Below are positions 5,468 through 59,860 of a DNA stretch of 64,000 bases, in pieces. The stretch spans positions 1-64,000 of the forward strand of contig NZ_BAIN01000003.1 in assembly GCF_000613285.1 (NCBI RefSeq), written 5' to 3'. The notes beneath the pieces were generated by a model. That model worked only from the letters and a program-made list of their open reading frames with translations. It did no database searches and was not told the origin of the DNA. The position numbers and the translations under genes are program-made. The stretch comes from Acetobacter papayae JCM 25143 (lineage in GTDB: Bacteria > Pseudomonadota > Alphaproteobacteria > Acetobacterales > Acetobacteraceae). Position 1 is the stretch's first letter; each line of letters starts with the position of its first letter.

Positions 5468-5542
5468 GTCCTGTTCGTCTAGAGGCCTAGGACATCGCCT
5501 CTCACGGCGACAACACGGGTTCGAATCCCGTACGGGACACCA
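5468..5542 (+). tRNA. tRNA-Glu (CTC), one base short in the anticodon loop
   Basis: Acceptor stem GTCCTGT pairs with ACGGGAC, the T arm holds GGTTCGAATCC, and CCA is encoded. The D arm TCGTCTAGAGGCCTAGGAC is typical of tRNA-Glu. The anticodon stem TCGCC / GGCGA encloses TCTCAC, only six bases, where a normal loop would be CTCTCAC with anticodon CTC. One missing C (75 instead of 76 bases) gives the usual form and matches the single-base deletions seen throughout the window. Confidence 0.9.
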
Positions 5543-6749: not shown

Positions 6750-6783
6750 GGTTCACCTCGCCAATGCACAGGATTCATATAGT

Positions 6784-6828
6784 CATAAAAACATATCATT
6801 TCAGTTCATTTTCATAAACTCATATCAT
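6784..6828. promoter_or_regulatory. Direct repeat between LysR and metF, possible operator
   Basis: Two 16-base copies, CATAAAAACATATCAT (6784-6799) and CATAAACTCATATCAT (6813-6828), match at 14 positions and are 29 bases apart in the divergent intergenic region. The position suits binding by the LysR regulator, though no MetR-type TGAA-N5-TTCA box was found. Tentative. Confidence 0.4.
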
Positions 6829-44875: not shown

Positions 44876-47148
44876 ATGAGCTTCCGTGCCCTTTGTCTGA
44901 ACACGCTTTGCGTATCTGCTTTGCTGTCCGGTGTGGGGCCAGTGCGGTTTTTTGCTCTTTCCGCAGCCCATGCGCAGGACGGTACAGCCCAGAACGCCGC
45001 CCCGGCAAAGAACGCGGCAAATCCGAAACACATGACCAGCCCTGTTGCCCAGTCTTCTGCTTCGTCACAGGTTGCTGCGCCGGTTGTGGCCGGCAAGGAA
45101 GAGGATCTGGTGGTTAAGGCCTCGCGCAACAACCGCATGTATGTTTCCAGTGGTGGCGATCTGGGGGCGCTCGGGCACAAGAAAGGGCTGGATGTGCCCT
45201 TCAATATCCGCAGCTACAACGCCAGCCTTATTCTTAATCAGCAGTCCCAGACATTGGGAGATGTGCTGCTTAATGATCCGACTGTCAGAACAACGACAGG
45301 TTACGGTAATTACGCTCAGCTTTTCCAGATTCGTGGCTTTACCCTGTATGGTGATGATATCGCCATTGACGGCCTGTATGGCGTAACACCTCGCCAGCTT
45401 GTGTCGCCCCAGCTTTACGAATCAGTGCAGGTGCTCAATGGCGCAAGCGCGTTCCTTAACGGTGCGGCTCCCGGTGGCTCCGCCATTGGTGGTAATGTCA
45501 ATCTTATCTCCAAACGGGCCGCAGCAACCGACATCACCCGGGTTACGGGTGATTATACCAGCAGCGCTCAGGGTGGCGGCGCGGTTGATATCAGCCGCAG
45601 GTTTGGTCAGGACCGGGCTTACGGTTTTCGTTTCAACGCCGCTGGTATGGATGGCGAAACCCCCATTGATGGCGAACGCCGTGCCGATATCGCGCTGGGT
45701 GGCGCGTTTGACTGGCACAATGACGATACCCGCATCAATATGAACATGAACTACCAAAAACAGCAGGTTTTTGGTGGGCGCAGTGCTATTATCGTTTCCA
45801 GCCTTGCTACGGGTATGCCTGCGCCCCTGCCGACTTCGCCTTCAAAAAACTGGGGCCAGCGCTGGGCTTATACGGACCTGTCCTACCTGTTTGGCACGAT
45901 GGGTATCGAGCATGACTTCGGGAAAAACGTGACTGTCTATGGAAAATTCGGTGCACAGAGTGGCAACGAAATGGGCAATTATGCCACTACCACTCTGACG
46001 AATTCTCGCACAGGCGCGGGTAATGTCGGGGCAATGGCTACGGCCTATAACGTCATGAACGAAGCAACGCAGGCCGGTGTGCGTGCCCATGTGGAAACAG
46101 GTTTCATCAAACACGAAATCAATGCCGGGGGATCGGCTATCTGGGAGGAGTCCGATTCTGCCTATGCTATGAGTCTGGTCGGGGTGTCGGGTAACATCTA
46201 TAATCCAACACAGTTTACCCCGAATGAAACCTATGCCCGTGGCAATATGAGCGATCCGGGGCGTGTTTCATGGAACAAGCTTTACAGCCTGTTCTTGTCG
46301 GATACGATGACCTTCTGGCATGACCGCATTTCTTTGACGGGTGGTTTCCGGTATCAGGATATTCTCTCCAACTCCTATGCGTATGGCAGTGGAGAGATGC
46401 AGACACATTATAATTCGTCCGCGTTTTCTCCGGTTATTGGTCTGGTCATTCATCCGGTCAAACATGTTGCCGTGTATTTCAATCGTATTCAGGGGTTGTC
46501 TGCGGGTTCAGTCGTTGGCTCCACCTATGTCAATGCCGGGCAGGTTTTCGCTCCGTATGAAAGCACGCAGTACGAAGTGGGGGCCAAATACGATATTGGC
46601 CGTTTTTCGGCAGGCGTTGCGTTCTACCAGACGTCCATGCCGTATGGGGTGGTGGAGCCTACGGCAATACAGGCCAGTTGCTCTATAGCCAGAACGGTCA
46701 GGAGAGAAACCGGGGTATGGAACTGACCTTTAATGGCGAAATCATACGTGGGCTGCGCTTTAACGGTGGTCTTACTTTGATTGATGCCAAACAGGTACGG
46801 GCGGCAAGTGAAGATAATAATGGTAAAACAGCTATTGGTGTTCCCAATTATACCATTAACGGCAACCTCGAATATGATGTGCCATTCGTTAAAGGTCTGA
46901 CTTTGGTTGGGCGTGTTATCAGCACGGGCAAGCAGCAGTTCAACAACGCTAATAGTGCACATCTGCCCGCATGGTCACGTTTCGATCTGGGAGCGCGTTA
47001 TACGTTCCTTGTGCGGGGTAAGGCGCTGACCACGCGCTTTGAGGTCGACAACGTCGGTAACCAGCGTTACTGGGCCTCTGTTTATCAGAGCAATCTGATC
47101 ATGGGTGACCCGGAAACCTTCAAGTTCTCGATAACGGCTGATCTTTAA
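44876..47148 (+). CDS. TonB-dependent siderophore receptor (frame break)
   Basis: About 757 residues after repair. The signal region is MSFRALCLNTLCVSALLSGV with a cut near AHAQD. The plug domain includes QQSQTLGDVLLNDPTVRTTT, LFQIRGFTLYGDDIAIDGLY and YESVQVLNGASAFLNGAAPG. A break near 46662 needs one base, giving GQLLYSQNGQERNRGMELTF. The end KFSITADL is slightly unusual for a barrel, but the final part matches receptors of the FhuE/ferrichrome type. Likely iron-siderophore uptake; the ligand is unknown. Confidence 0.85.
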
Positions 47149-48933: not shown

Positions 48934-49116
48934 ATATGGATGTGCTGATGGTGCGCTGCGTGCTTGCGCAAGGTCTTGGGTGTGCGGGCAACGCCATATC
49001 CTTGTTTTTCAATAAAATTGATGCGGGAAAGCGGGGAAGGGAAGGGCGCTAAGACGCAGCTTTATTCCCTATTCAGAACGATTTTTCTGGCAATCAGGAG
49101 GCGGTTTGCGCTAATG

Positions 49117-49146
49117 AGTAATACGATTTGTTGACACGGTATTACT
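49117..49146 (+). promoter_or_regulatory. NikR-spaced palindrome over the -35 box
   Basis: AGTAATAC (49117-49124) and GTATTACT (49139-49146) are perfect inverted half-sites, 22 bases centre to centre, the same spacing as the E. coli NikR operator. TTGACA (49131-49136) lies between them and CATATC (49154-49159) is a weak -10 at 17 bases. A repressor bound here would block the promoter. The NikR-like gene in the same operon is the natural binder. Confidence 0.65.
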
Positions 49147-49300
49147 AATTGAGCATATCCTTGGTGGCGCAGGGACGAAAAGCAGGGGGAAAGAACCTTC
49201 TGCAACAGGAGTTTCGTTCTCAGATTGGCGCCGGGGAATGACATTGCGCCGCTGGGCCTGCTGGCACAGACGGTAGCGGGACAGTACGGGAGAGCGGGCG

Positions 49301-50259
49301 ATGTCACGCATGTCCGGATGGGCACTATACGGAAAGGTCGGCCGGAAAAGCCGCGTGGTTCTGGGTGGGCTTTCCATCCTTCTGCCGCTGCTGCTCTGGA
49401 GCGCTGTCAGTTATGTACCATTCATCTGGCACCCTCAGATACTGGTGACCGACCCGGGTGGGGAAGATTATCTGGAAGAAGGCATGCGCATGAAGCGTGC
49501 CGATTTCGAGCGTGCCGTGCAGGAAATGCACGCGGCAGGGCAGAAAGCGCCAGAAGGTGTGCCGGTCAACCCGGTTTACCTGCCTTCGCCCGGCGGTGTG
49601 TTTTCCGCTTTTGTTCAGGCTTTCATCCAGCCTGATTCGCGTGGGCCGGAAAAATCCATCCTTCAGGCGTTCTGGCACAGTATCCAGATTATTTTCTGGG
49701 GCTTTGTCATTTCTTCCGTCATCGGGGTGCCGCTGGGCGTTCTGTGTGGGGCTCTGCCTGCGCTTTCACGGCTTGTTGAACCTTCGGTGGACTTTCTGCG
49801 CTATCTGCCTGCGCCGGCTTTCGGGGCGCTTATGGTGGCTATTCTGGGTATTTATGATGCCCCCAAGATTGCCATTATTGTTATCGGCACGCTGTTTCAG
49901 CAGATTCTTGTTATTGCCAACACTACGCGCAAGCTCGATTTCGGCCTGATGGAGGCCGCCCGCACGCTGGCGCGCGGGGCAAGAAGCTAATGTTCTGCGT
50001 GGTGGTGCCCGGTATTCTGCCCGATCTCTACCGCGACCAGCGCATTCTGCTGGGCTGGGCGTGGACGTATCTTATCGTGGCGGAACTGATCGGCACATCC
50101 TCGGGTATTACGTGGTTTATTACCCAGCAGGCCCGGTATCAGCACTTTGCCAATGTTTACGCAGCCATGGCGCTGATCGGGATCGTCGGTCTGGGCACAG
50201 ACATGCTGCTCGGCTTTGCCGCGCGCTTTCTGTTCCGCTGGAAGCAGGAGACTGAGTGA
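49301..50259 (+). CDS. ABC transporter permease of the guanidine/urea operon (frame break)
   Basis: About 319 residues after repair. Helices of the SsuC/NrtB type follow a long periplasmic insert (VTDPGGEDYLEEGMRMKRAD): LQAFWHSIQIIFWGFVISSV, VIGVPLGVLCGALPALSRLV, ILGIYDAPKIAIIVIGTLFQ and, after a break near 49982, KKLMFCVVVPGILPDLYRDQ with the EAA-type loop MEAARTLARGA before it. It forms the channel for the substrate captured by the binding protein at 58844. Its stop overlaps the ATPase start. Confidence 0.85.
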
Positions 50260-51170
50260 TGAGTGCAGACAACGGTAAAACAGTCGACTATCGCGTGCTG
50301 CCTGCTGATGTGGCGGAGCGCATGGAGCGTATCAAGGCGCGCGATGTGGTGCTGCGGGTGGAAAACCTCGGCAAAATCTTCGCCCAGCGTGGCCGTGAGA
50401 CGGTAGCGCTTGAAGATATCAACATGAATGTCCACCGCCGCGAATTCGTGTGCGTGGTCGGGCCTTCGGGTTGTGGCAAATCCACGCTGGTGCGGATTCT
50501 CGCCGGGTTGGAGCAGGCGTCTTCAGGGCGGATTCTGGTGGATGACAAGCCGGTTGAAGGCCCCGGGCCTGACCGTGGCATGGTGTTCCAGAAATACACG
50601 CTCTTTCCGTGGCGGACTGTGTGCCAGAACGTCATGTTCGGGCTTGAAATGGCTGGCATCAGCAAGGACGAAAGCCGGCGGCAGGCCATGCAGTGGCTAC
50701 AGGCCATCGGGCTGGAACGCTTTGCGGAATCGCTGCCGCACCAGCTTTCGGGTGGTATGCAGCAGCGCGTGGCCATTGCCCGTGCCCTAGCGGCCCAGCC
50801 CCGCGTATTGCTGATGGATGAACCCTTCAGCGCGCTGGACGCCCAGACCCGCGTGCGGATGCAGACCCACCTGATGGAGATCTGGCGCAAGATCGACATC
50901 ACCATCGTCTTTATTACCCATGATCTGGATGAGGCCATTTATCTGGCAGACCGGATTCTGGTGCTCAAGGCGCATCCGGGCCGGGTGGAAGAGGTGATAG
51001 AAGTGCCGCTGTCGCGCCCGCGCCGGGCAGAGCAGATGACCAGTGCAGAGTTTCAGGCGACCAAGGCTCATCTTGAATCGCTCATTCATGCACCGGCAGA
51101 GGAAACGCCCGATGAGTTCGAGGGTACGGAAGTGCCTCTCCTGACACTCGTCACGGATGTTGTGGAATAA
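50259..51170 (+). CDS. ABC transporter ATP-binding protein (SsuB/NrtD-like)
   Basis: 303 residues, intact, ATG at 50259 overlapping the permease TGA. Walker A is VGPSGCGKSTLVRILAG, the Q loop is GMVFQKYTLFPWRT, the signature is LSGGMQQRVAIARALA, Walker B is VLLMDEPFSALD, and the H loop is FITHDLDEAIYLAD. It has an N-terminal extension of about 30 residues before the ABC domain. It drives uptake of the operon substrate. Confidence 0.9.
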   Translation: MSADNGKTVDYRVLPADVAERMERIKARDVVLRVENLGKIFAQRGRETVALEDINMNVHRREFVCVVGPSGCGKSTLVRILAGLEQASSGRILVDDKPVEGPGPDRGMVFQKYTLFPWRTVCQNVMFGLEMAGISKDESRRQAMQWLQAIGLERFAESLPHQLSGGMQQRVAIARALAAQPRVLLMDEPFSALDAQTRVRMQTHLMEIWRKIDITIVFITHDLDEAIYLADRILVLKAHPGRVEEVIEVPLSRPRRAEQMTSAEFQATKAHLESLIHAPAEETPDEFEGTEVPLLTLVTDVVE

Positions 51171-51185
51171 AAGGGAGCACGGCAG

Positions 51186-51665
51186 ATGGCCCGCAAAAAA
51201 GCAGAAGAGCAGGTCAGCCGCATCAGTGTCTCTCTCCCGCCGCACATCCTGCGTGAACTGGATGGCATGGTGGCCGACAAGGGATATGTCAGCCGTTCGC
51301 AGGCCATCCAGCATATCCTGCATGAAGCCCTGACCGACTGCCGTCAGGAAGATGATAACGAAATCATGGCCGGTGTAATCGTGCTGTTTTATAACAACTC
51401 GACAACCGGCCTGCAGCAGAAACTGGCCGATATGCAGTATGAGAACGTGGCGGAAGTCATAAGCTCCCTGCATGTCAACCTGATCCGGCGGCAGACTCTT
51501 GAGGTTGTTCTGGTTCAGGGGCGGGTTGCCAAGCTGCATGAAATAGAAAACAGGTTTTCAACCCTGCCGGGCGTTATTTCCGGCCGTATGCACCTGATTG
51601 CTTCCCTTATTCCCCCGTTGCACGAGGTCGGACGCGAGGCCTTGGTGGATGTGGGGCCTGTATAA
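51186..51665 (+). CDS. NikR-like ribbon-helix-helix regulator lacking most nickel ligands
   Basis: 159 residues, intact, 15 bases after the ATPase. The N-terminal ribbon-helix-helix is SRISVSLPPHILRELDGMVA with VSRSQAIQHILHEAL, followed by an ACT-like domain as in NikR. In NikR nickel is held by one His in the QHHHH region, two in LHVH and a Cys just after. Here the equivalents read MQYEN, LHVN (His96 kept, Asn98) and QTLE (Thr104), so only one ligand remains. It probably controls this operon in answer to something other than nickel, such as guanidine. Confidence 0.82.
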   Translation: MARKKAEEQVSRISVSLPPHILRELDGMVADKGYVSRSQAIQHILHEALTDCRQEDDNEIMAGVIVLFYNNSTTGLQQKLADMQYENVAEVISSLHVNLIRRQTLEVVLVQGRVAKLHEIENRFSTLPGVISGRMHLIASLIPPLHEVGREALVDVGPV

Positions 51666-51736
51666 GTTCATGGTGATGCCGTGATGTGAAACCCGCTGTG
51701 GGCACGGCATTCTTTTCGGATAAAGAGGACAGAACC

Positions 51737-52540
51737 ATGCAGATCGATCAGCAAAGTCCGGAATGGTACCGGGCCCGTTACAACCAGCTGCGTGACCGCG
51801 CTCTGGGTGAAGAGCGTGCGGAGCGCTCCGGGCAGGGGTTTATTGCCATGGACGACACGGCTGTACTGCACCGTGAAACCGTGCCGGGCGGGTGGTACTG
51901 GAGCACGTTCGTGCCGCGCGGTCAGGCTCTGCGCCTGATCAATACTGCGGGCAACAAGGGTGTGTCCGTCATGCTGTGGAACGCGGATGACCTGAGTGAG
52001 CGCTTCAATGCCGGTGATACGCTCAAGCTGCAGTGGACAACCCAGCTTAGCACGGGCCGTGTGCTGTTTTCCGATATGGGGCGCGTTCTGGCCTCTATCA
52101 TTAACGATACCTGCGGCACGTCCGATACCATCATGGGAGGCAGCACGCCGTCTTCCAACGCGCGTAACTTTGGTAATCCCGCCCTGCGCAACACCCGTAA
52201 CAACATGCGCCTGATTGCGGGCAAGCATGGGCTGGATGTGCGTGACGTTCCCGCCTGCATCTCGTTCTTTTCCCATGTGAGTGTCGGGGCCGAGGGCGGC
52301 CTGTCATGGGTGGATGGTAGCGTGCAGCCCGGCGGTGTGGTGGACCTGCGCGCGGAAATGAACCTCCTTGTCGGGGTGTCCAACTGCCCGCATCCTTTCA
52401 GCCCGGACAGCACATTCGCACCCGGCCCCATTGATGTGGTGCGCTGGCAGGCTCCGGCCCCGGCTGCGGATGATTTGTGCCGCACGTTCTGTGAAGAAGC
52501 ACAGCGCGGCTTCGAGAACACTGACCCTCTTTTCGCCTGA
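51737..52540 (+). CDS. Urea-carboxylase-associated protein 2 / carboxyguanidine deiminase subunit
   Basis: 267 residues from ATG 51737. It belongs to the DUF1989 family: VPGGWYWSTFVPRGQALRLI, GVSVMLWNADDLSERFNAGD, FSDMGRVLASIINDTCGTSD and VGVSNCPHPFSP. Conserved Cys and His residues suit a metal-dependent deiminase. In characterised guanidine operons the two DUF1989 proteins (CgdA, CgdB) form the enzyme that turns carboxyguanidine into allophanate and ammonia. Twenty bases separate it from the second subunit. Which of the two is CgdA is not decided here. Confidence 0.85.
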   Translation: MQIDQQSPEWYRARYNQLRDRALGEERAERSGQGFIAMDDTAVLHRETVPGGWYWSTFVPRGQALRLINTAGNKGVSVMLWNADDLSERFNAGDTLKLQWTTQLSTGRVLFSDMGRVLASIINDTCGTSDTIMGGSTPSSNARNFGNPALRNTRNNMRLIAGKHGLDVRDVPACISFFSHVSVGAEGGLSWVDGSVQPGGVVDLRAEMNLLVGVSNCPHPFSPDSTFAPGPIDVVRWQAPAPAADDLCRTFCEEAQRGFENTDPLFA

Positions 52541-52560: not shown

Positions 52561-53190
52561 ATGAGCAATGTTTCCTCTTCCGTCGTGCTCGATCAGGTTG
52601 TGCCCGCGCGCGCACCCTGGTCTGCGGTGGTGAAAAAAGGCCAGACCCTGCGGATCATCGATCTGGAAAGCCAGCAGGCGGTGGACGCCCTTTTTTATAA
52701 TGCCAACGCCTATTCCGAGCGCTACAGCGCACAGGAAACGGTGATCGCTCAGGGTTCTGCCTATATTGGCAAGGGCACCGGGCTCTATTCCAACGAAGGG
52801 CGTGTGCTGATGACGCTGGTGGAAGACACCTGCGGCCGTCATGACACGCTGGCCGGTGCCTGCAGTTGTGAATCCAACACCGTGCGCTTTGGGCATGAGA
52901 CAAAATACATGCATGCTTGCCGTGAAAATTTCCTGATCGAAGTAGGAAAATACGGCATGGGCAAGCGCGATATTGTCGGCAATGTCAATTTTTTCATGAA
53001 CGTGCCGGTTCTGGAAAATGGCGAGCTGGTGATTGACGATGGTCTGTCAGACCCCGGCGGGTATGTTGACCTTCTGGCAGAAATGGACACGCTGGTGGTG
53101 TTGTCCAACTGTCCGCAGGTCAACAACCCCTGCAACGGCTTTGTACCCACGCCTATCCGCGTGATTATCAGCGAAGCCGTTCCGGCCTGA
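52561..53190 (+). CDS. Urea-carboxylase-associated protein 1 / carboxyguanidine deiminase subunit
   Basis: 209 residues, intact. It is the second DUF1989 protein: QTLRIIDLESQQAVDALFYN, YSNEGRVLMTLVEDTCGRHD, GACSCESNTVRFGHETKYMH (Cys and His cluster) and VVLSNCPQVNNPCNGFVPTP. It is similar in plan to its upstream neighbour, as expected for paired subunits. It sits 45 bases before the carboxylase gene. The role in deaminating carboxyguanidine follows from the family and context. Confidence 0.87.
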   Translation: MSNVSSSVVLDQVVPARAPWSAVVKKGQTLRIIDLESQQAVDALFYNANAYSERYSAQETVIAQGSAYIGKGTGLYSNEGRVLMTLVEDTCGRHDTLAGACSCESNTVRFGHETKYMHACRENFLIEVGKYGMGKRDIVGNVNFFMNVPVLENGELVIDDGLSDPGGYVDLLAEMDTLVVLSNCPQVNNPCNGFVPTPIRVIISEAVPA

Positions 53191-53235
53191 AACTGCCGGG
53201 GATCCGGCGTGTAAAGTTTGTTGGAAAGACCTGAC

Positions 53236-56200
53236 ATGTTCTCGAAAGTTCTGATTGCGAACCGTGGTGAAACCGTCCGGCGTATCGGCCGCACCCTGCG
53301 CCGGATGGAAATCGGCTCGGTTGCTGTCTGCTCCGAAGCGGATCGCTTCGCGCCACCCGTTCTTGAGGCAGATGAAGCCGTGCTGATCGGGCCTGCAGCG
53401 GTTGCACAGAGCTATCTGAACATGGATGCCATTTTGCAGGCCTGCCGCGATACCGGCGCGCAGGCCGTGCATCCTGGCTATGGTTTTCTGAGCGAACGCG
53501 CGGAGTTTGCCGAGCGTCTGGCGGCAGAGGGAATCCGCTTCATTGGCCCGCGGCCCGAGCATATGCGCGCGTTTGGTCTCAAACATACGGCGCGTGCTCT
53601 GGCGCAGGAAAATGGGGTGCCGTTGCTGCCGGGTACGGATATTTTGTCCACGGCGGATGATGCGGCGCGTGAGGCTGAGCAGATCGGTTATCCGGTCATG
53701 CTCAAAAGCACTGCGGGCGGTGGCGGTATCGGCATGCAGGTCTGTCAGGACGAGGCGGCCCTGCGCACCTGCTTTGAGGCCGTGTCGCGTCTGGGTGGCA
53801 ACAACTTTGGCGATGCCCGCGTCTTTTTGGAAAAATTCATTGCCAGCGCACGGCATATCGAAGTGCAGATTTTTGGCGATGGCCGCGGCGGTATTCTGAC
53901 ACTGGGTGAACGTGACTGCTCCTTGCAGCGGCGCAACCAGAAGGTGATCGAGGAAACTCCCGGCCCCGGTCTGGATGAAGCTACGCGGCAGGCCCTGCGG
54001 CGCGCGGCCAAGGCGCTGTGTGGCGCGGTGCAGTATGAATCAGCCGGAACGGTCGAATTCATTTACGATACCCAGAGTGGCCGCTTCTACTTCCTTGAGG
54101 TCAACACCCGCCTGCAGGTGGAACACTGTGTGACCGAAGAAACCTTCGGGGTCGATCTGGTGGAGTGGATGATCCGTCAGGCGGATGGGTCCTTTACCCT
54201 GCCTGAGCAGGATAGTCTGGTGCCGGTTGGTGCTGCGGTAGAAGCGCGTATTTACGCCGAAAATCCGGCTGAAAACTTCCGTCCTTCTACCGGGCGGCTG
54301 ACACAGGTTTCCTTCCCCGCTGGCGTGCGGTGGATGGCTGGGTTGAAACCGGCACGGAAATTACCCCGCATTATGACCCCATGCTGGCCAAGGTGATTGC
54401 AACCGGGGCCGATCGGGCGGAGGCGCTGCGTAACCTGCATAACGCCCTGTGCGCGACCCGGCTGGACGGGCTGGAAAGCAATCTTGATTACCTGCGCGCC
54501 ATTACGGCGCACCCGCAGGTGATCGCAGGGGCCGTGACGACAGGTTTCCTCAACGTTTTCTCCTATATGCCCAACACTATGGAAGTGCTGGCTCCGGGCC
54601 TGCAATCCACCGTGCAGGACTGGCCCGGTCGCGTTGGTTACTGGGATGTAGGCGTGCCACCTAACGGGCCGATGGATGACCGTAACTTCCGTCTGGCAAA
54701 CCGGATTGTCGGGAACGCGCAGGGTGCGCCTGCTCTGGAACTGACAGTTTCCGGGCCGGTGCTGCGCTTCAATGCTCCCGTTACCATCGCGCTGACAGGC
54801 GCGCTCATGCCCGCCACACTGGATGGCGAGGTGGTGCCGTACTGGCTGCCGGTGACTGTAAAAGCCGGGCAGGTGCTGGCTCTGGGGCAGATCAAAGGGG
54901 CTGGGCACAGAACCTATCTGGCGGTTGCTGGCGGGCTGGATGCACCGCAGTATCTGGGTTCCAGCTCCACCTTCATGCTGGGGCAGTTCGGTGGACATGC
55001 CACGGGGCAGCTACGTACGGGCGATGTGCTGCGTTTCCATGCCAGCACCGCGCAGCCCGAGGGTGAAACGGTGCCTGAAGGCGAACGCCCGGTGCTGACC
55101 AGCGAGTGGGAAATTGGGGTGCTGTACGGCCCCCATGGCGCACCTGAGTTTTTCCAGCCTGACGATATTGCCGACCTGTTTTCCAGCACTTACGAGGTGC
55201 ATTTCAACAGTGCGCGCACAGGGGTGCGCCTGATCGGCCCCAAGCCGCGCTGGGCGCGAACCGATGGGGGCGAAGCCGGGCTGCATCCGTCCAATATTCA
55301 CGATAATGCCTATGCTATCGGGGCTATCGATTTTACCGGCGACATGCCCATTCTGCTGGGGCCTGACGGACCGAGCCTTGGTGGGTTTGTCTGCCCTGCC
55401 GTGGTGGTACGCGATGAGTTGTGGAAGCTCGGCCAGCTTCACCCCGGCGACAAGGTGCGCTTTCGCAGGGTGATGCCGCCTGCGCTGTCTCTGCCGTTCC
55501 TTTCCGCGCCGGTGGAGGGGGATAACCCCGTGCTGCATCGTTCGGAAGGGACGGTGCCGGTCGTGTATCGTCGGGCGGGTGAGCAGTATCTGCTGCTGGA
55601 ATTTGGCGAGCCGGTGCTCGATATTCCCCTGCGCCTGCGTGTGCAGCTTATGCTTGAGGCTCTGCGGGCGAAAAACGTGCAGGGTATTGTAGACCTGACA
55701 CCGGGCATCCGCTCTCTTCAGGTGCATTACAACCCCGACGTACTGCCCCTGCCGGAGCTGATGACGCTCCTGCATGAAATTGAGCAGGCACTGCCCGAGA
55801 ATGATGATGATATCGAGGTGCCCAGCCGTATCGTAACCCTGCCGCTGTCGTGGGATGACGAGCAGGCGCGTCTGGCCATGCAGCGTTATCAGGAACTGGT
55901 GCGGCCCAATGCGCCATGGTGCCCGTCAAACATCGAGTTCATTCGCCGGATCAACGGGCTTTCCTCGATTGAGGATGTGAAGGACATTATCTTCAACGCC
56001 TCCTATCTGGTTATGGGGCTGGGCGATGTTTATTTGGGCGCGCCGGTGGCGACACCGGTTGACCCCCGGCACCGTCTGGTCACCACCAAATACAACCCGG
56101 CGCGTACATGGACACCCGATAACGTGGTGGGCATTGGCGGCAGCTATATGTGCATTTACGGCATGGAAGGGCCGGGCGGGTACCAGCTCTTTGGCCGTAC

Positions 56201-56774
56201 CATTCAGGTGTGGAACACATGGCGTAGCACGGATGCGTTTGCGCCCGGTCGCCCATGGCTACTGCGCTTCTTTGACCAGATCCGCTTCTACCCTGTCTCG
56301 CATGATGAGTTGATGGAAGCACGCGCCGCCTTCCCGCATGGGCGTTTTCCCGTGCAGATCGAGGAAACGACGTTCAGCCTGAAGGCATATCGTGCGTTCC
56401 TGAGCGAGCATGAAGAGGAAATCCGTATCGCCAAGGATCGCCAGCAGGCGGCGTATGAAGTGGAGCGGCAGGACTGGATTACCAAGGGGCTGGATACGTT
56501 TGAAGAGGAAGTCACCACCCCTCAGGCGGAAGAAAGTGCCCTGCCCGAAGGCCATGCCGCTGTGGATAGCCCGGTGCCGGGCAGCGTGTGGCAGATTCCC
56601 GTGGCCGTGGGTGATCGCGTAGCCGTGGGAGATGCGGTGGTCATTATCGAATCCATGAAGACGGAAATGAAGGTGGTTTCGCCCGTCGCGGGTGAGGTGG
56701 TGGAAATCCTGTGCCGCAAGGGGCGCGAGGTGCGCGGTGGTGAGCGCGTTATGGTGATCCGCACAGAAAACTAG
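53236..56774 (+). CDS. Biotin-dependent guanidine (urea) carboxylase (frame break)
   Basis: About 1179 residues after repair. Biotin carboxylase domain at the start (MFSKVLIANRGETVRRIGRT; VMLKSTAGGGGIGMQVCQDE; FLEVNTRLQVEHCVTEETFG), then the carboxyltransferase parts akin to allophanate-hydrolase subunits (APGLQSTVQDWPGRVGYWDV; AIDFTGDMPILLGPDGPSLG), and a biotinyl domain with VIIESMKTEMKVV, the Lys being the biotin site. The break near 54342 needs one base, giving VDGWVETGTEITPHYDPMLA. With the deiminase genes adjacent, guanidine is a better substrate guess than urea. An Asp stands in AIDFTGD; whether this is the residue separating the two specificities I cannot confirm. Confidence 0.87.
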
Positions 56775-56835
56775 CACAAACCCATGGCGCGACCTGCTGT
56801 CGCGCATGGTGGACAGGGAATCAGGAGAGGGCATC

Positions 56836-58647
56836 ATGACTTTGCCAGCCATGCTACAGATTGATGAAATCCTTGCCGCGTACCGCTCTGGTGCGCTGCG
56901 TCCGACCGCGCTGGTAACAGAGGTGCTGGAGCGGGTTGACGCCTATGCCCTCAAGGACCCCGCAGTGTGGATCACCCGTGCGGGGCGCGAAAAGCTTCTC
57001 GCCCGTGCGGCGTTTCTTGAAACCCAGCCGGTAGACAGCCTGCCGCTTTATGGTATTCCCTTTGCGGTCAAGGACAATATCGACGTTGCAGGCTACCCCA
57101 CTACGGCGGCCTGTCCCGATTTTGCCTATGAGCCGCAGGCCAGTGCCGAGGTTGTGGCCCGGCTGGAAGCCGCGGGCGCTATCATGATTGGCAAGACCAA
57201 TCTTGATCAGTTCGCCACCGGGCTGGTGGGCACGCGCTCACCTTACGGCCAGCCGCATTGCGTGTTTGATGACCGGTACGTCTCCGGTGGTTCCAGCTCC
57301 GGTTCGGGTGTTGCTGTGGCAGCGGGTCTGGTTTCGTTCTCGCTGGGGACAGATACGGCGGGTTCTGGCCGGGTGCCTGCGGCTATTAATAATATTGTCG
57401 GGCTCAAACCCACACGCGGCGCGCTAAGCTCGACTGGCGTGGTCCCTGCCTGCCTGTCGCTGGATTGTGTGTCCATTTTCGCAACCAGCGTTGCTGATGC
57501 CCTGAAGGTGGAGGCGCAGGCCGCCGCGTGGGATGGCGCGGCACCCTATTCACGCCCGATGGCGCACCATGCCCTGCCACAGCAGACCTTCCGCTTTGGT
57601 GTGCTGGCAGAAAAAGACCGCTTTTTTGATGGTGATGCCCAGAACGCTGCCCTGTACGAGCAGGCGATCAGCCGGTGCGAGGCCCTTGGCGGCACCGCAG
57701 TAGAACTGGATTACACCCCCCTGCGCGAAACAGCGGAACTGCTTTACGGCGGGGCGTTTGTGGTAGAGCGTCTGGCGGCGATAGAGCCTTTCTTTACCGC
57801 GCATGAGGCGGCCATGGACCCGACCGTTGCGGGTATTATCGGCTCTGCCAGACGTTATAGTGGTGCGGATGTGTTCCGCGCGGCTTACCGCCAGCATGAA
57901 TTGCAGCAGGTAGCAGCCGATATGTGGCAGCAGTTCGATGTCATGCTGCTGCCCACCATGCCAAGGATTGTCAGCCGTGAGGAAGTGGCGGCACAGCCGG
58001 TAGCGGCCAACAGCCTGCACGGGGTGTATACCAATTTCGTCAATCTGCTGGATATGTCCGCCTGTGCGGTGCCAGCGGCTTTCCGCGATGACGGTCTGCC
58101 CTTTGGTGTAACCTTTGTGGCACCCGCTTTTGCCGATCATGATCTGGGCCTGCTGGCCGGGCGTTTCCATGCCGCCAGCCAGACCGGGGCAGGGTTGGCG
58201 CGTGTAGCCATTGGTGCAGGTGATGAGGCTCCCCGCCCTGCGGCGGAAGGCACGCTGCGCCTTGCTGTTGTGGGGGCGCATCTCAAGGGGTTGCCGCTGC
58301 ACTATCAGCTTGAGCAGGAAAACGCCGTTCTGGTGCGCACAACCCGTACCGCACAGGATTACAAGCTGTTTGCCCTGCCTGCCTCCGTACCGCCCAAGCC
58401 GGGCCTGTTCAGGCAGCCCGGTTTTGAAGGCCCCGGTCTGGAAGTGGAAATTTACGAACTGTCCGCTTCTGGCTTCGGGCGGTTTGTTGCCTCGGTTCCG
58501 CAACCAATGGCTATCGGGCGCATTACCCTTGCAGACGGGCAGGAAGTGGATAGCTTCCTGTGTGCCGAGGCGTTTGCCAGCAAGGGGCAGGATATTACGG
58601 AACTGGGTGGGTGGAAGGCCTACCTGAAGACCGTGCAGGCCGGATAA
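56836..58647 (+). CDS. atzF: Allophanate hydrolase (AtzF-type)
   Basis: 603 residues, intact, start ATG 56836. Amidase-signature domain with the Ser-cisSer-Lys triad: Lys in FAVKDNIDVAG, Ser in GGSSSGSGVAVAAG and Ser in DTAGSGRVPAA. The C-terminal ~150 residues form the allophanate-hydrolase C-domain (LRLAVVGAHLKGLPLHYQLE; LEVEIYELSASGFGRFVASV). It splits allophanate to ammonia and CO2, the last step of the pathway. It follows the carboxylase by 61 bases. Confidence 0.93.
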   Translation: MTLPAMLQIDEILAAYRSGALRPTALVTEVLERVDAYALKDPAVWITRAGREKLLARAAFLETQPVDSLPLYGIPFAVKDNIDVAGYPTTAACPDFAYEPQASAEVVARLEAAGAIMIGKTNLDQFATGLVGTRSPYGQPHCVFDDRYVSGGSSSGSGVAVAAGLVSFSLGTDTAGSGRVPAAINNIVGLKPTRGALSSTGVVPACLSLDCVSIFATSVADALKVEAQAAAWDGAAPYSRPMAHHALPQQTFRFGVLAEKDRFFDGDAQNAALYEQAISRCEALGGTAVELDYTPLRETAELLYGGAFVVERLAAIEPFFTAHEAAMDPTVAGIIGSARRYSGADVFRAAYRQHELQQVAADMWQQFDVMLLPTMPRIVSREEVAAQPVAANSLHGVYTNFVNLLDMSACAVPAAFRDDGLPFGVTFVAPAFADHDLGLLAGRFHAASQTGAGLARVAIGAGDEAPRPAAEGTLRLAVVGAHLKGLPLHYQLEQENAVLVRTTRTAQDYKLFALPASVPPKPGLFRQPGFEGPGLEVEIYELSASGFGRFVASVPQPMAIGRITLADGQEVDSFLCAEAFASKGQDITELGGWKAYLKTVQAG

Positions 58648-58843: not shown

Positions 58844-59860
58844 ATGCAGATGAAGACCAAGACCATGGGATCCAGGTTTCGCAACTTTCTCATGACCTGC
58901 TGCCTTGTCGCGGTAGGTGGCGTGGCAGGCAGTCTGGCACAGGCCGAGGCCGCGCCGCTCCAGGTTGGTTACAGCGACTGGCCGGGCTGGGTGGCCTGGC
59001 AGGTTGCGCTGGACAAGGGCTGGTTCAAGGAAGCCGGCGTGGATGTTTCCTTCCAGTGGTTTGATTATTCTGCCTCGCTTGATGCCTTTGCCTCGGGCAA
59101 GCTCGATGCCGTAACCGCTACCAATGGCGATGTGCTGGTAACCGGTTCCGGTGGCCATAAGGGCGTGATCGTTCTGGTGGATGATTATTCCAACGGTAAC
59201 GACATGATTATCGGTGCGCCGGGTGTGACCAGCGTAAAGGACCTCAAGGGCAAGAAGGTTGGCGTTGAACGCGGTCTGGTGGACCACCTGCTGCTGCTTA
59301 ACGCCCTGCAGACCGCCGGGATGAAGGAAACCGACATCACGCTGGTTGATACCAAGACCAACGAAACCCCGCAGGTTCTGGCTTCGGGCGATGTGTCGGC
59401 CATTGGTGCGTGGCAGCCCAGTGCCGGGCAGGCGCTGCGGCAGGTGCCGGGCTCACGCCCGATCTATACCTCTCATGACGCACCGGGCCTGATTTACGAC
59501 GTGCTGGCAGTTGACCCGGCAAGCCTCAAGGCCCACCCGGATGACTGGAAAAAGATCGTAGGCGTGTGGAAGCGCGTTGTGGCGTTTATTGAAGACCCCA
59601 AGACCCAGCCGGAAGCACTGGAAATCATGTCCCGCCGCGTGGGGCTTGAAGCGTCCAGCTACAAGAAGCTGCTCAAGGGCACGCATCTGCTGACGCTCGA
59701 AGACGACGTGAAGGTTTACGAACGGAACGACACGCTGGCTTCCATTTATGGTTCGACCCAGAATGCCGACAACTTCAACGTGAAATACGAGGTCTACAAG
59801 ACCCCGCAGAACATCGACACCTATATCGACCCGGCTCTGATTCACGCACTGGTCAAATAA
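58844..59860 (+). CDS. ABC transporter substrate-binding protein of the guanidine/urea operon
   Basis: 338 residues, intact, start ATG 58844 with GGAG at five bases. A signal peptide (FLMTCCLVAVGGVAGSLAQA) is followed by a NrtA/SsuA-type binding protein: LQVGYSDWPGWVAWQVALDK, FDYSASLDAFASGKLDAVTA, VKDLKGKKVGVERGLVDHLL and IGAWQPSAGQALRQVPGSRP. It hands the substrate to the permease and ATPase at 49301-51170. Being last in the operon is unusual for the binding protein of an importer. The exact ligand (guanidine, urea or a related compound) is inferred. Confidence 0.85.
   Translation: MQMKTKTMGSRFRNFLMTCCLVAVGGVAGSLAQAEAAPLQVGYSDWPGWVAWQVALDKGWFKEAGVDVSFQWFDYSASLDAFASGKLDAVTATNGDVLVTGSGGHKGVIVLVDDYSNGNDMIIGAPGVTSVKDLKGKKVGVERGLVDHLLLLNALQTAGMKETDITLVDTKTNETPQVLASGDVSAIGAWQPSAGQALRQVPGSRPIYTSHDAPGLIYDVLAVDPASLKAHPDDWKKIVGVWKRVVAFIEDPKTQPEALEIMSRRVGLEASSYKKLLKGTHLLTLEDDVKVYERNDTLASIYGSTQNADNFNVKYEVYKTPQNIDTYIDPALIHALVK

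Follow-up and report, generated by a model that had tools for sequence, protein, structure and literature searches.

A gene at positions 51186..51665 (+ strand) of the window, by which we mean the whole stretch of 64,000 nucleotides of Acetobacter papayae JCM 25143 analysed here, was found to encode a 159-aa NikR-like regulator without the nickel ligand set, situated inside a guanidine operon. The protein is probably a repressor of the NikR fold that responds to guanidine or a close guanidino compound in place of nickel, with DNA binding and ligand binding both inferred. A preliminary description of this DNA had suggested a new sensing role tied to guanidine, and this suggestion gained support from the relatives of the gene: none of the 28 clade members carries all four nickel ligands, 25 of the 28 lie by guanidine carboxylase/deiminase genes, a shared operator was found at 27 of the 28 loci, and guanidine riboswitches are present in six.

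The identification of the regulator was based on the ORF list, Pfam and NCBIfam models, a structure-sequence match, homologue alignments and a tree. Its product matched the Pfam models RHH_1 (21.9 bits, cut-off 20.5) and NikR_C (66.6 bits, cut-off 22), the ribbon-helix-helix (RHH) domain standing first and NikR_C after it, which is the order that defines the NikR layout. It also aligned without gaps to P. horikoshii NikR (2bj1; residues 10-137 to 3-130, 128 residues, E 3.6e-20), and the earlier claim that the NikR layout is kept could be confirmed on these grounds. By curated score the protein does not qualify as a NikR: five NCBIfam nickel/NikR models match it, each below its cut-off (94.6 bits against 105, 88.1 against 111, 79.3 against 119, 68.5 against 83 and 62.8 against 175.45). 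According to the part of PMC7055735 that was available, the nickel ligands of E. coli NikR are His76, His87, His89 and Cys95. In the alignment with 2bj1 and in a 56-row homologue alignment, where ligand columns were equated with E. coli positions via the His-His-His-Cys (HHHC) columns of canonical rows, the equivalents in the regulator are Tyr85, His96, Asn98 and Thr104. His96 is the sole survivor of the four, as had been noticed from the sequence beforehand, and the proposed check by alignment with NikR structure and homologues did not restore the nickel ligands. As a NikR, the predicted product fails a defining test, the nickel site. The source genome encodes a second NikR, which is canonical with all four ligands (C177:89490-89891). 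An AlphaFold model of the regulator, with three near-identical alignment rows, was of low confidence (pLDDT 44.8).

Homologues were collected at family level (200 genomes) and phylum level (398 genomes), and then from members in a plasmid collection, giving 21 clade rows; weaker matches of the family and phylum searches that came without a locus were left out of the ligand reading. When 369 genomes from the class to which genome G555 belongs were searched later (E up to 1e-25), seven members were added. Over the 28 members, the equivalents of His76, His87, His89 and Cys95 are kept in 4, 24, 5 and 0, respectively, and over the first 21 in 0, 21, 3 and 0. These 21 form one side of a tree branch with support 100/97, and P. 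horikoshii NikR is the nearest row outside them after midpoint rooting; L033, L029, L032, L051, L057, L059, L062 and the seven later members are not in the tree. In the 56-row alignment, a shared pattern of ligand loss was seen in 13 rows; of the remaining 43, 41 had His-His-His-Cys and two had H-Q-Q-R. Among non-clade homologues HHHC was read in 42 of 44, a count that takes in L019, L028, L030 and L033 (first left out of the canonical column counts), and in all six that are absent from the 56-row and later column-count alignments (L029, L032, L051, L057, L059 and L062). The class search gave four ligands in 22 of 22 non-clade homologues, and the alignment-based search for NikR-like genes in seven of eight non-clade matches, one of which (L058) is also counted among the 44. 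Judged from these alignments, the loss of the ligands is a property of the clade and no oddity of a single sequence. Ligands have also been lost in L019 and L028 (both H-Q-Q-R), which are NikR homologues outside the guanidine clade, and in L130 (G580), which lies outside it on a long branch.

Nickel is required by urease and by the alternative guanidine hydrolase, and the regulator could still be a metal sensor that couples guanidine use to the supply of nickel, with nickel or another metal bound at a rearranged site. The retention of the His96 position in 24 members and the His-His-His set of L154 and L155, with Thr at the Cys position, are in line with this explanation. However, the Cys is kept in no member, the His89 equivalent is missing in 23 of 28 and that of His76 in 24 of 28 with no uniform replacement by His, Cys or Asp, and a canonical HHHC NikR is already at hand in the source genome; we regard a metal sensor as highly improbable.

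In the clade, R12, which we take to be the Arg that starts the DNA-reading strand, is present in 21 of 21 members. Q39 is found in 20 of 21 where canonical rows carry E, and in the same 21-member comparison R42 is lost and Q111 stands where canonical rows mostly have R or K. A C-terminal [AS]L-x-PP tail is typical of the 21 members, with P143 invariant, and V91, I92, S93, L99, V107, L109, Q111 and P143 are invariant in a 16-row alignment. The old nickel site was considered as a guanidinium pocket, with His96 and Glu106 near-invariant in the 21 members, and this was rejected when the seven further members broke the pattern; a pocket at that place is only a guess. No obvious set of guanidinium pocket residues was found, since His96, Gln84, Glu90 and Glu106 each vary in some members.

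The genes of the operon, all on the + strand, follow the order permease, ATPase, regulator, UAAP1, UAAP2, carboxylase, allophanate hydrolase and substrate-binding protein. The ABC transporter permease (BPD_transp_1), identified from ORFs, a domain match and comparison with loci L003 and L004, occupies 49301..50259 in two frames (49301-49990 and 49990-50259), and the ABC transporter ATPase, identified from ORFs and domain models, 50256..51170. Behind the regulator lie the carboxyguanidine deiminase subunits UAAP1 (DUF1989; 51686..52540; TIGR03425, 276.7 bits, cut-off 205.95) and UAAP2 (52561..53190; TIGR03424, 326.5 bits, cut-off 284.7), a guanidine carboxylase of the urea-carboxylase family in two frames (53218..56774, with 53218-54396 and 54330-56774; domain models, alignment with 5i8i, L003 and L004) and an allophanate hydrolase (56806..58647; TIGR02713, 752.7 bits, cut-off 511.05). 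The last gene (58844..59860) encodes an ABC transporter substrate-binding protein, for which the closest model was the 'putative urea' substrate-binding protein TIGR03427 at 150.5 bits, below the cut-off of 333.9. Neither frame break, in permease or carboxylase, occurs in the near-identical loci of Acetobacter suratthaniensis (L003) and A. peroxydans (L004), the two that a single-sequence scan of genome contigs gave, where each gene is a single frame. With a source assembly of 177 contigs and an estimated completeness of 87%, the breaks may reflect either sequence error or real decay. A TonB-dependent-receptor-like gene at 44876-47148 is apparently split too in the ORF list, and elsewhere in the window a tRNA at 5468-5542 was called by ARAGORN, with a four-base anticodon (ctca), and also by Rfam.

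In the alignment with K. lactis urea amidolyase (5i8i), on which positions were counted by hand, the carboxylase carries Asp ('gaiDftgd') at Asn1330 and Asp at 1584. These two residues are described as the signature of guanidine carboxylase in the available part of PMC11410670, and the operon had thus been rightly labelled as guanidine-type. Guanidine use was assigned where a guanidine-type carboxylase occurs together with both deiminase subunits over their cut-offs, as is the case here. No nickel transport or nickel enzyme genes were found in the window operon with the domain models; for the related loci the comparison was restricted to the window genes and a small number of others, which leaves room for nickel genes farther away there.

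Upstream of the operon, a predicted operator was located at 49113..49150 (no strand assigned) by pattern search, shuffles and comparison of related loci. It is an inverted repeat, AATGAGTAATAC-N14-GTATTACTAATT, with arms of 12 nt each that are 92% complementary. Its core, GTAATAC-N14-GTATTAC (49118-49145, 28 bp), holds TTGACA in the spacer, and a simple promoter scan found no full sigma-70 promoter at the operator. The pattern GTAATAC-N12..16-GTATTAC, written after the site was seen, matched once in the window and not at all in 100 shuffles. The occurrence at 27 clade loci refers to GTAWTAC-N14-GTAWTAC with at most two mismatches. In the first set this motif was present in 20 of 21 loci, with 40 sites in 393 kb against 0-3 in ten dinucleotide shuffles; gaps of 9-13 and 15-20 gave 0-4 sites and a gap of 8 gave ten, five of them from one stretch of L066. 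TTGAC was found on one strand in 18 of the 40 spacers. Motif and mismatch limit were chosen while viewing the first set, and the seven later loci served as the test: all seven had the operator, gap 14 giving 17 sites and each of the remaining gaps from 8 to 20 giving 0-4. No operator was found in L064 (G169), where the carboxylase gene is interrupted by about 1 kb and an ALIL pseudoknot lies nearby, which we take to indicate an IS3-type element.

The operator was absent from the eight canonical nikR loci (132 kb) and was found in two of 21 riboswitch-type loci (six sites in 396 kb, five of them close together in L134 as an apparent repeat); with only these two, it was rejected as a general feature of guanidine operons. 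For the annotated plasmid loci L082, L083, L084, L086 and L087, nine of 11 sites are found ahead of transporter or regulator genes. Of these nine, one falls within the last part of the gene before it, and two are placed closer to the midpoint between a TonB-receptor gene and a transporter gene. The other two (L083:17418-17527) are situated between YncE-family and sterol desaturase genes and adjoin the guanidine operon of Novosphingobium sp. EMRT-2. Genome-wide and among the matches listed, sites with at most two mismatches exceeded the reversed control in three of 11 genomes (G227, G353 and G548), and the genome of the window (G000) gave 12 sites against 29 in the reversed control, the window site being the only one with fewer than two mismatches. 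Among these listed matches only sites with 0-1 mismatch stand out and the two-mismatch pattern is not specific, so that reliance was placed on the loci and on the sites with 0-1 mismatch. In eight genomes with the operator (G227, G325, G353, G508, G544, G548, G555 and G563), no further NikR homologue turned up at E 0.001; the operator therefore need not be that of a canonical NikR, and such an assignment is unlikely. L067 contains GTATGAC-N14-GTCATAC, the E. coli half-site. The predicted operator is new here; the preliminary description mentions neither it nor the relation to riboswitches nor the distribution across the family. The binding of the clade protein to the operator is inferred, without binding data.

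UAAP and carboxylase genes were present in the stretch read for the window and 24 of the 27 other clade loci, and at none of the eight canonical nikR loci. The three loci without them nearby (L065, L067 and L187) all contain a type III glutamine synthetase gene; a gene of the creatininase family is present at two of them, and the same ABC transporter is also found at two. Of the genomes that these three loci come from, G563 and G1139 encode UAAP2 on another contig than the regulator, and G555 lacks it. Taken over the 28 loci, the type III glutamine synthetase gene occurs at seven, six of which also have the creatininase-family gene. The two genes stand together by the regulator at L065:7307-9486, L066:13669-15833, L067:10427-12576, L183:10019-12158, L184:7327-9457 and L185:7315-9477, and at L187:6245-7603 the glutamine synthetase gene alone lies beside the ligand-less NikR-like gene. 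It is possible that this pair represents a second route for guanidine or a guanidino compound. Creatininase as a riboswitch-linked guanidine gene was rejected: in 54 genomes close homologues (65-100%) were found in G555, G563 and G227, and the 39% matches in G882 and G852 lie on other contigs than the riboswitch.

At L082:12314-16487, on an Acinetobacter plasmid, the operator is followed by ABC transporter, 2OG oxygenase, 293-aa protein and SMR exporter genes. The oxygenase and 293-aa genes resemble the methylguanidine pair MgdH/MgdL as given in the available part of PMC12508155. This identity is not claimed, as the best PDB match of the oxygenase (P0005) is named ethylene/succinate-forming enzyme, and its neighbour (P0006) had no PDB match below E 0.2. 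For the SMR protein, Qac-type models were best, all below cut-off, with SugE lower.

These neighbourhoods can also indicate that repressor and operator act as proposed with an effector other than free guanidine. A substituted guanidine (e.g. methylguanidine or another compound taken up via the shared ABC transporter), carboxyguanidine, allophanate or a nitrogen-status signal would be candidates, and the glutamine synthetase and creatininase-family genes, the three loci that have such genes and no carboxylase genes nearby, and the oxygenase and SMR unit behind the L082 operator all point this way. The absence of UAAP2 from G555 makes an intermediate of the carboxylase pathway unlikely as common effector, however, and the guanidine riboswitches in the operons of six clade loci also count against another effector, which we consider unlikely but worth keeping in mind. 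Because G555 has the regulator and the transporter and no UAAP2, we expect the effector shared by the clade to be the compound that is imported or one closely related to it.

None of the Rfam guanidine families was detected in the window, and RF00442 gave no match in the source genome, 87% complete. A total of 60 genomes gave UAAP2 (TIGR03424): 42 of the 398 from the phylum (limit 1e-50) and 22 of the 385 from the class (limit 1e-80), 18 of the latter being new. The guanidine-I riboswitch is present in none of the seven genomes with an operon-linked NikR-like gene (G000, G227, G325, G353, G508, G544 and G548) as against 50 of the 52 UAAP2 genomes without a linked gene (33 of 34 and 17 of 18; Fisher 1e-7, kinship ignored). 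The two lacking it, G527 and G730, are alone in having UAAP2 below the TIGR03424 cut-off. The absence of the NikR-like gene from the 52 genomes was checked by a search with alignment A2. The search behind 0/7 and 33/34 used stricter filters, with which weak riboswitch matches can be lost, and one class I match behind 17/18 (G852) was below the gathering score; whole genomes were searched for class I only, and the other guanidine classes in the loci only. G563 was set aside from this contrast; it has a riboswitch on the UAAP2 contig, and its unlinked NikR-like gene lies beside the creatininase and glutamine synthetase genes.

This pattern looks like a regulator replacing the riboswitch, yet it is not the whole story. 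The exclusion is not absolute, as both Acinetobacter loci carry class I and G227 carries class II. In L081 the operator (1845-1872) is followed by a guanidine-I aptamer (1907-2002) and by UAAP1 from 2031; in L151, on the minus strand, the aptamer is at 6724-6613, UAAP1 starts from 6584 and the operator is at 6760-6787. The operator is thus 34-35 bp upstream of the riboswitch in both, with two mismatches in L151, where such a site is expected 0.26 times in the stretch. A guanidine-II aptamer precedes UAAP1 in L066 (G227), and guanidine-II aptamers 0.6-2.1 bits above cut-off (E 0.0085-0.02) precede the carboxylase gene in L183, L185 and L186. This gives the six clade loci with guanidine riboswitches in their operons, L151 being counted with L082; in the stretch read of the other 22 no guanidine riboswitch was found at the Rfam cut-off. 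If the operator, which stands ahead of a guanidine-I riboswitch in L081 and L151, is used there, protein and RNA may both control one guanidine transcript, and such joint control would connect the regulator with guanidine itself.

The same riboswitches would also fit a ligand-blind NikR relic that always binds the operator and merely damps constitutive expression by autoregulation, the guanidine response coming from riboswitches or other factors. The lack of an identified conserved pocket would fit such a relic as well. On the other hand, it would leave no known guanidine control at the 22 loci without a riboswitch at the Rfam cut-off, and the C-domain is conserved, with its eight invariant residues; a relic of this kind is regarded as improbable.

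For a repressor that has exchanged nickel for guanidine, the following mechanism can be proposed. Like NikR, the protein would form a C-domain tetramer, itself inferred, that carries two ribbon-helix-helix dimers, and with these it would occupy the two half-sites, which are 21 bp apart centre to centre. The operator would cover the probable promoter of the operon for guanidine uptake and breakdown, and in the absence of guanidine the repressor would block this promoter. Guanidine entering the altered C-domain would cause release, upon which the carboxylase-deiminase-allophanate hydrolase pathway would be made. DNA binding by NikR is promoted by its ligand. Here the switch would work the other way round, because the pathway is needed when its substrate is present. 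The sequences themselves show the fold family, the lost ligands, the operon and the operator with its distribution; repression is inferred like the binding itself, and whether the exact effector is guanidine, a substituted guanidine or another compound remains open, as guanidine binding has not been shown.

Taken together, the results slightly favour a broader reading, namely that transcription factors which descend from NikR and bind guanidine form a family widespread in Proteobacteria. This family would be the first protein regulator for guanidine, with the nickel site given up and the switch reversed, and sometimes acting in series with a guanidine riboswitch on one transcript; its regulon would also mark an undescribed second guanidine or guanidino route, made up of an amidohydrolase of the creatininase family together with a type III glutamine synthetase. 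The candidate family and its predicted operator make protein sensing of guanidine testable with one protein and one 38-bp DNA. If true, it would clearly exemplify the conversion of a metal sensor into one for a small organic cation, and the regulator might serve as a component of a guanidine biosensor.

No description of a NikR- or CopG-type guanidine regulator was found in those parts of the open-licence literature that were available, and work elsewhere could exist. In the available part of PMC2667541, NikR and urea carboxylase are both mentioned without connection, and no mention of NikR was found in those of PMC11647477 and PMC9800807, which deal with guanidine carboxylase and carboxyguanidine. 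Guanidine carboxylase, carboxyguanidine deiminase and the riboswitch are covered by PMC12186494, likewise available in part. As far as the accessible text of PMC11018352 goes, four riboswitch classes sense guanidine. The guanidine-I to -IV riboswitches share with the clade regulator the same kind of target genes, given as guanidine carboxylase, carboxyguanidine deiminase, allophanate hydrolase and transporters in the available parts of PMC11410670 and PMC12508155; they differ in being RNA on the transcript, whereas the clade regulator is a protein predicted to act on the promoter. The N-terminal RHH DNA-binding domain is shared with repressors of the CopG/Arc/MetJ type, and some clade members are annotated as 'CopG family ribbon-helix-helix protein'. 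Unlike a bare CopG protein, the clade protein carries the NikR_C regulatory domain.

The closest likeness is to NikR, and by its build and operator the regulator reads as one that works like a NikR, DNA and ligand binding being inferred. Both have the RHH and NikR_C layout, with a gap-free alignment to the P. horikoshii protein, and R12. Published boxes, as far as the sources were available, are GTATGA-N16-TCATAC for E. coli NikR (PMC7055735) and GTGTTAC-N13/14-GTAACAC for delta-proteobacterial NikR (PMC545781). The predicted clade operator is of the same build, an inverted repeat about 28 bp long whose 7-nt arms are separated by N13/14, its recognition by the protein being inferred. The clade differs from NikR in the nickel ligand set, broken in all 28 members, in the Q39, Q111, missing R42 and [AS]L-x-PP tail described above, in having guanidine genes nearby and not nickel genes, and presumably in being released from DNA by its ligand, where NikR binds with it.
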